Origin: Opitutaceae bacterium
GTDB taxonomy: Bacteria > Verrucomicrobiota > Verrucomicrobiia > Opitutales > Opitutaceae
DNA: 42,931 bases
Direction: 5' to 3'
Assembly: GCA_027482505.1 (NCBI GenBank)
Contig: JAIXVY010000194.1
Span: 1 to 42,931 of the forward strand
Positions 30,827 to 32,152 of this stretch are shown one piece after another; position 1 is the first letter of the stretch; every line of letters begins with the position of its first letter. The position numbers and the translations under genes were made by a program. The notes below the pieces were generated by a model that saw only the letters and a program-made list of their open reading frames with translations, made no database searches and had not been told where the DNA came from.

Positions 30827-32152
30827 ATGCCTTTCCACGTTTTCCGCCCTACGAATCGCGGCCGAACTTCAAAGTTCTACTCGGCGCGGTTTACGCTTCC
30901 CGAATGGCCCCGCCCGCGCGTGCTGGCCCTGCGGATGACTCAAAAGGATGTGGCGGAAGAAAAGGCGCGCTTGATGTTGCAGGACTTCGAGCGGGAGGCC
31001 GTAGGGATGCAGCCGCTACAAGCAGCGAGGAAGGCGGCGCGGACGCCCCTTGCGCCGCATTTGATGGACTTTCTCGCCGATGTGAAAGCGCGGGGCAGGG
31101 CGGCAGCGACGCTTAAGGTTTACGGCGTCGTTTTGCGTGGGCTCTGCAAGGCGTGCAAGTGGGAGACGGCGGCGGATGTCACGGCCGCAAGTTTTGAAGC
31201 GTGGCGGAAGTCCGATGAGGTAAGCCCAAAATATGCGAACAATGCGCTGGGCTATGCGCGGACCTTTTTCGCGTGGCTTGTGAAGCGTCGACTTTTGGTG
31301 GCGAACCCTCTGGCCGGAGTTGAGAAAATCAAAATTCGTGAGGACCGGGGAAAGCGTTACGCGCCGACCGTCGAGCAACTGCGCGTGCTTCTGGCCCTCG
31401 CTCCGGCCCATCGAGCTACCGTTTACCTCGTCGCGATTTACACGGGATTGCGGCGTCACGAGTTGGGCTTGCTGACGTGGGGCGACTTCGACCTAGACGG
31501 CGCCGCGCCGTCTGTCCGGGTTGCCGGGTCCATCTCAAAGAATGCCAGGACAACGACCCTTCCTCTTCGGCCGGAGGTCGTGCAGGCGCTCCGGGCGTAT
31601 CGGCCGGACAACGCGCAGCCGTTCGAGTGGGTGTTTCGCAATCGAGTCCCGAACATGCGGACCTTTCGCCGCGATCTGAAAGCGGCCGGTATCGCCCCGG
31701 TGGATGCCTACGGCCGCAAGTTCGATTTCCACGCGCTGCGGACCACGCTCGGCACGCTGCTTTCCGCGTCGGGGGCGAAGCCTCGGGACGCGATGGAGTT
31801 AATGCGGCACAGCGAAATGAAGCTGACGATGAAGACTTATACGGACGCCTCGCACCTGCCGCTTGTGGCCACGATGGCGGCGCTTCCTTCCCTCGCTCTC
31901 CCGGAAAAGCATATACAAAAGCATGACTCGAAAGCCGTCATTTCGGGTCAAAACGGGGTCTCTGCTGTCCTGCCGAGTCCCGCGCTTGTCTCCGGAATAG
32001 TTTCCGTAAGTGTCTCGTCCTGTCGCGGTCTGGCAATTTCTGACTCCCCGGGCGGGGAGGGGGAAATGGTCGGGCTGGTGAGATTCGAACTCACGACCTC
32101 TTGCACCCCATGCAAGCGCGCTACCAGGCTACGCTACAGCCCGAAAAACTGA
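30827..32152 (+). CDS. Tyrosine recombinase/integrase, C-terminus reads through att core and antisense tRNA-Pro
   Basis: Core-binding domain then YTGLRRHELGLLTW, FDFHALRTTLGTLL, RHSEMKLTMKTYTD; last 28 residues MVGLVRFELTTSCTPCKRATRLRYSPKN are antisense tRNA plus flank. Confidence 0.93.
   Translation: MPFHVFRPTNRGRTSKFYSARFTLPEWPRPRVLALRMTQKDVAEEKARLMLQDFEREAVGMQPLQAARKAARTPLAPHLMDFLADVKARGRAAATLKVYGVVLRGLCKACKWETAADVTAASFEAWRKSDEVSPKYANNALGYARTFFAWLVKRRLLVANPLAGVEKIKIREDRGKRYAPTVEQLRVLLALAPAHRATVYLVAIYTGLRRHELGLLTWGDFDLDGAAPSVRVAGSISKNARTTTLPLRPEVVQALRAYRPDNAQPFEWVFRNRVPNMRTFRRDLKAAGIAPVDAYGRKFDFHALRTTLGTLLSASGAKPRDAMELMRHSEMKLTMKTYTDASHLPLVATMAALPSLALPEKHIQKHDSKAVISGQNGVSAVLPSPALVSGIVSVSVSSCRGLAISDSPGGEGEMVGLVRFELTTSCTPCKRATRLRYSPKN
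32064..32089. repeat. Right att copy (within tRNA-Pro 3' end)
   Basis: AAATGGTCGGGCTGGTGAGATTCGAA, identical to 28368-28393. Confidence 0.93.
32067..32143 (-). tRNA. tRNA-Pro (anticodon GGG)
   Basis: CGGGCTG TA GCGT AGCCTGGTA GCGC G CTTGC ATGGGGT GCAAG AGGTC GTGAG TTCGAAT CTCAC CAGCCCG A CCA; full cloverleaf, 77 nt with encoded CCA. Confidence 0.95.

Follow-up and report, generated by a model that had tools for sequence, protein, structure and literature searches.

According to its reading frames, a small integrative element of an Opitutaceae bacterium almost certainly carries its attachment (att) site nested within the 3' part of its own tyrosine integrase gene (int), and integration would exchange, in frame, a C-terminal module for a short tail read from the antisense strand of the target tRNA gene. 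We put the combined reading, this anatomy together with a switch coupled to DNA topology, at roughly 60%. The nesting is the rule, as far as sequence comparison tells, across a large integrase family that spans at least two phyla, Verrucomicrobiota and Planctomycetota. The window referred to below is the whole stretch of 42,931 nucleotides that was analyzed.

The element in the window and the two forms of its integrase

The element, about 3.7 kb long, sits in a tRNA-Pro(GGG) gene and has a 26-bp att core (AAATGGTCGGGCTGGTGAGATTCGAA) at each end (Table 1). This core is the sole perfect long direct repeat within 26-34.5 kb of the window, and genome-wide it occurs in just two copies. An empty site is present in L217, another species of the window's genus; when the window flanks were joined, they aligned through the core to L217 with 86.5% identity over 178 bp. 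In this empty site the tRNA terminator adjoins the core. In the window, a CTCCCC...GGGGAG hairpin brought by the element replaces the displaced host terminator; the nearest relative, G164 (L052), keeps its stem and differs in the loop.

A rolling-circle Rep, an excisionase and the integrase make up the gene content, together with small ORFs without family. Regarding the features of integrative rolling-circle plasmids, we observed a Rep domain and an integrase, accompanied by two small ORFs of no family; family searches with the 100-aa ORF found none. The interval between the left-end tail and Rep (28720-28840) is GC-rich, contains repeated CTCCCC/GGGGAG and GGAGC motifs, and may serve the rolling-circle Rep as replication origin.

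The window integrase keeps the R-K-H-R-H-Y catalytic residues, whose columns are invariant in alignment A1 and which all lie upstream of the core; this is the catalytic domain expected of lambda-type (arm-binding) tyrosine integrases. The preliminary description held that the int frame runs through the core (ATG GTC GGG... at 32066) into the antisense tRNA-Pro, and that the left core opens at 28370 with the same codons, in a frame ending at 28672. Both statements were confirmed by the ORFs; in the integrated form the final ~29 codons, beginning with the core, come from antisense tRNA-Pro. When 30827-32089 is joined to 28394-28672, a single open frame of 513 aa results, the reconstructed circle form. 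The predicted contrast of 513 aa after recombination at the core with 441 aa when integrated has strong comparative support. The att core falls inside the int reading frame in this reconstructed frame, in 26 of 26 elements surveyed and at two uninterrupted loci. In the 441-aa ORF the 3' end has been exchanged in frame and the catalytic domain is retained.

Table 1. Features of the integrative element and its target site, in window coordinates
Feature	Position	Strand	Basis or remark
Terminator-like hairpin of host tRNA gene, displaced by element	28335..28356	-	Fold; adjoins core in empty site L217
attL (left att core)	28368..28393	+	26-bp perfect repeat
Left-end ORF, core codons plus 92-residue C-terminal module	28370..28672	+	ORF; tail conserved in G164 and C427
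Possible arm-type site in tail, ~60 bp past core, weak	28450..28468	+	Position as in relatives; matching G164 repeat
ORF with rolling-circle Rep domain (~29217-29582), true start uncertain	28536..30155	+	PF23343 E 3e-9; phrog_3419
100-aa ORF of element	30308..30610	+	ORF list
HTH protein of excisionase family (72 aa), immediately before int	30607..30825	+	TIGR01764 47 bits, above cutoff; PF12728
Tyrosine integrase, integrated form, 441 aa	30827..32152	+	Pfam PF00589 E 6.9e-18; translation
Probable arm-type site pair in linker, AAAAGCAT ATAC AAAAGCAT, 12-bp period	31905..31924	+	Position as relatives' arm repeats
Element-borne hairpin CTCCCC-GGGC-GGGGAG	32044..32059	-	Fold; just 3' of tRNA when integrated
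attR (right att core)	32064..32089	+	tRNA-Pro 3' end, antisense, in int frame; 26-bp perfect repeat
tRNA-Pro (anticodon GGG), target gene, intact	32067..32143	-	ARAGORN; Rfam RF00005

The reading frame across the att core in the integrase family

We gathered integrase relatives from the order, GTDB contigs and the phylum, with Cerasicoccus and Puniceicoccaceae strains represented in the collection; the profile of alignment A1 was too diverse for contig scans, and smaller alignments were used instead. Each integrase was scored, blind to the tail, for entry into a downstream antisense tRNA and for an upstream copy of the 3' end of that tRNA. In the first set, true left att copies had at least 23 of 26 matches, and the remaining candidates had at most 18. 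The resulting 26 elements (window included) are those with an int running into the tRNA and an identified left att; the degenerate tandem L096 was omitted. A 20-bp repeat in L083 was not counted as an att core; it lies before the tRNA and resembles the repeat shared by linker and tail that is described below.

Tails that read through into a tRNA are familiar from integrase annotations, and antisense tRNA 3' ends are often stop-free; in this set, every core phase is open in one element or another. The run-through could therefore be apparent only, with a random frame at the left end. However, the int frame is open through the linker and enters the adjacent antisense tRNA in 90 of 102 integrases, against 17 of 204 for the alternative two frames, and homologues that stop before the core, which the preliminary description had named as evidence against its proposal, are thus mostly absent. 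At the left end, the int frame is open for 47-110 codons in 26/26 elements. It is also the longest of the three frames in each of them (P 4e-13), and at least 45 codons are open past the left core in 26/26 for the int frame and 2/52 for the other two (Fisher 1e-18), where both P values treat the elements as independent; shared ancestry makes the counts partly dependent, although the distances in the tree are large. Six of the 26 come from class- and phylum-level genomes fetched once the pattern was already defined. The set spans 18 tRNA anticodons and uses all three core phases (17, 3 and 6 elements), which makes the frame match a property of each element and not of the tRNA. With the motif and codon-level constraint found in the tails, these frame tests refute chance for the family; as the window's own tail is also conserved in two relatives (G164 and C427), we consider chance extremely improbable.

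Alternatively, the left-end ORF might be a separate gene that starts at an ATG in the core and regulates recombination or copy number, its match with the int frame being incidental. In the window, the core does supply an ATG, preceded by a GA-rich stretch (28359-28372), and the ORF reads MVGLVRFE.... Under this explanation the int phase is expected in about one-third of cases, whereas it was found in 26/26; many cores have no ATG in that frame, and int and tail form one frame at two loci. A separate gene is accordingly an improbable account of the frame match. As an extra, the tail peptide may be made separately in the integrated state.

Eight of the 110 tree rows stop before the core and are without a tail, and the nearest neighbours of the window integrase are among them. 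Integrases of this kind were seen in L094, L095 (G154), L063 (G196), L068 (G188), L082 (G272) and L134. These elements are mostly short, about 2 kb, often lie at tRNA-Pro and have integrases close to the window's; in G154, several tail-less elements stand in a row. Since a scattered minority of this kind exists, the module is not universally required, and since four of five tail-less relatives keep the same arm layout, it appears dispensable in some lineages. Scans of viral contigs yielded few relatives and no clearly circular element, and tblastn against plasmids and phages gave remote matches only.

The C-terminal module and repeats within coding DNA

A motif near the tail end, LAxVVxAWPxLxxxLxxAILxIV or a variant, was the basis for aligning 18 of 20 first-set tails; the window tail is among the 18 and fits the motif poorly. 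The motif profile matches 5/6 second-set tails. The tails of the window, G164 and a further contig, C427, are mutually conserved and divergent, and the profile of the common motif does not match them. Both kinds of tail are predicted to form a less ordered stretch followed by a helical hairpin, with helices at 422-432 and 436-447 in the fused relative L147 and, at low confidence, at residues 37-61 and 66-90 of the window tail.

G164, from the same genus, carries an integrase (66% identical to that of the window) and a tail (59% identical) in the order seen in the window. Its left core continues into the tail in the same frame. Its right core is cut short (MVGLVRPEM, then a stop); the complete copy of tRNA-Pro is found about 31 kb beyond, separated from it by other DNA. 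In the window's own assembly, contig C427 (L053, complement 1213-1499) holds the left end of a second such element, at another tRNA-like 3' end, TGGTGGACCCTAGCAGGTTCGAA. Its tail is 44% identical to that of the window and its core is again read in the ...RFE frame; no integrase of this element was found in the assembly.

Counting stops within tails is circular, because each tail ends at its own stop; we dropped such counts and used frame comparison and conservation in their place. Between the window and G164, dN/dS (NG86) is 0.19 for the catalytic part, 0.39 for the tail and 1.37 for the linker, the last alongside a synonymous difference of just 0.27. Such values would be expected of a linker conserved at the DNA level and a tail conserved as a protein. 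Substitutions at codon positions 1/2/3 number 14/10/23 in the helical half of the tail and 11/10/13 in the core-proximal half. An unconserved or frame-shifted left tail, likewise foreseen as counter-evidence in the preliminary description, was thus not encountered: the tails are conserved in frame. The catalytic dN/dS of L129 was ignored, as its catalytic region is out of frame.

In four integrases, L067 int1, L090/L215, L079 and L147, the module is contiguous with int. L067 int1 and L090/L215 present arm repeat, tRNA-like core, arm repeat and tail in a single uninterrupted frame and are, on their sequence layout, a natural picture of the attP form; the N-terminal half of L090 is degenerate. 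L079 and L147 have the module and no evident core within the gene. At L067 (G013:C23, 14774-17681) two integrases stand in tandem, the first with an intact attP-like full-length frame and the second entering tRNA-Met, possibly a single element in which one integration module has been used and the other has not.

A repeat of 19-41 bp, often made up of two copies of a motif at a period of about 12 bp, occurs in both linker and tail. It typically lies 113-147 bp before the tRNA end and, on the other side, often about 60 bp past the core. The repeat exceeds shuffles in 23/26 elements; in 19 of these 23, its copies share a codon frame. In the other four (L160, L081, L128 and L208) the copies differ in frame, which suggests that they act as DNA sites. 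Wherever just one phase of a repeat copy is open, the copies agree in frame (6/6 cases). Controls whose int stops before the core have similar repeats in similar places in 4/5. A protein duplication behind the linker and tail peptides was rejected in view of the ~12-bp period, the similar distances, the four controls in which the region does not encode int, and the four out-of-frame cases. Most likely, the repeats are putative arm-type Int sites. In the window, a clear repeat pair is present in the linker alone; the tail copy is weak and not significant.

Proposed course of integration and comparison with known integrases

We propose that the gene in the circle would run from the catalytic domain through a linker with P-arm Int sites, the tRNA-derived core and P'-arm sites to the helical module. 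Integration at the tRNA 3' end would be recombination within the core, leaving the catalytic part at attR with its short tRNA-antisense tail and the module stranded at attL. Full-length Int from the circle would be the integrating form, and the integrated element would yield Int without the module. Conservation of the module, though it is joined to Int in the circle alone, argues for a role in the integrating form. The topology-dependent integrase with in-frame alternative tails, as first suggested from this DNA, therefore stands; the accompanying idea of the tRNA tail as a second functional tail does not fit as well, since tRNA-encoded tails vary with tRNA and phase, which favours loss of the module over gain of another tail.

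Module loss would lower or change Int activity, integration would become self-limiting, and excision would depend on the neighbouring excisionase, giving a topology-coupled switch. It is plausible that the tail swap is a switch of directionality or stability. This is supported by the excisionase beside int and by the phage Mx8, in which an altered int 3' end changes, and does not abolish, the behaviour of the integrase (PMC6070905).

The same anatomy might serve compactness only: attP folded into int would save space, the module would aid folding or function, and truncation would have no regulatory role. The elements are indeed small (1.9-10.3 kb in the set), tail-less relatives exist with an unchanged arm layout, and the tRNA-encoded tails have no evident conserved function. 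Yet the module has been conserved despite being part of int in the circle alone, the arrangement persists over many tRNAs and three phases, and the analogy with Mx8 (PMC6070905) points to a change of behaviour with a change of the 3' end. We regard a purely space-saving arrangement as possible but rather unlikely. If the topology-coupled switch is true, a single recombination event alters substrate and enzyme together, the module being exchanged for an arbitrary tRNA-antisense sequence.

The principle of a nested att is known from Mx8 and Mx9. In the Myxococcus phage Mx8, the int coding sequence contains attP, and integration supplies int with another 3' end while its catalytic domain stays in place (PMC6070905). 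The window family resembles Mx8 in these points and in the excisionase gene nearby. In the phage record, an excisionase gene precedes int, and Mx8 Int reads across the tRNA-like peptide ARSTGLEPV into another, unrelated tail. Homology is remote, with about 8 bits for profile A1 against Mx8 Int and 1.3 bits, no match, for the tail profile. The window integrase appears to work like Mx8 Int and, with scores this low, is not its close kin. Mx8 is a phage, whereas the window holds a small Rep-bearing element; and unlike in Mx8, the arrangement here is a family rule, includes a conserved module and has repeats within coding DNA where arm sites would lie.

Archaeal SSV-type 'suicidal' integrase genes contain their own recombination target and are split apart on integration; a review describes self-disrupting integrase genes as exclusively archaeal (PMC8371274). 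The window family shares the recombination target within the gene and the separation of its parts. However, in SSV types the split runs between the N-terminal and catalytic parts and leaves a gene that is inactive on its own, whereas here the catalytic domain stays whole and the C-terminal module is lost: in the window, a site splitting the catalytic from the N-terminal domain was not found, the core lying about 55 codons past the end of the catalytic domain. Classical lambda-type integrases of tRNA-borne islands share with the family a crossover at the tRNA 3' end, two-sided arm-like repeats and a nearby excisionase, but their attP lies outside int and the protein is identical in both states. 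The Islander database mentions integrases that extend across attP solely as exceptions of the Mx8 and SSV types (PMC4383910), and in the literature searched we found no description of an attP-nested int as a family rule in Verrucomicrobiota or Planctomycetota. New here is this family-wide rule in the two phyla, with a C-terminal module fused to Int in the circle only. We see even odds that these integrases form a widespread bacterial class in which DNA topology would control directionality, with the module covalent in the circle only and the attP arms within coding DNA. The class would span Verrucomicrobiota and Planctomycetota, and probably Kiritimatiellota too.

Most members of this large bacterial family have a nested att, whose position can be resolved to the single base, and the relatives with a stop ahead of the core serve as natural controls; the reprogramming of an integrase by integration is therefore directly testable. 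For annotation, this means that an integrase ending in tRNA-antisense sequence can belong to a swapped gene whose other half is an unassigned ORF at the opposite end of the element. Tool integrases cloned from integrated elements would come without the C-terminal module.

Two further arrangements were observed among the relatives. At tRNA-Asn in L088 (G020), around 9122-10405, two elements are consecutive, and the first int ends soon inside the second left end (MAARAGIEPAIIVH, then a stop) because the second tail is in another frame. In L148, L156 and L159, planctomycete integrases of the family adjoin a tRNA-Sec gene, an unusual target.
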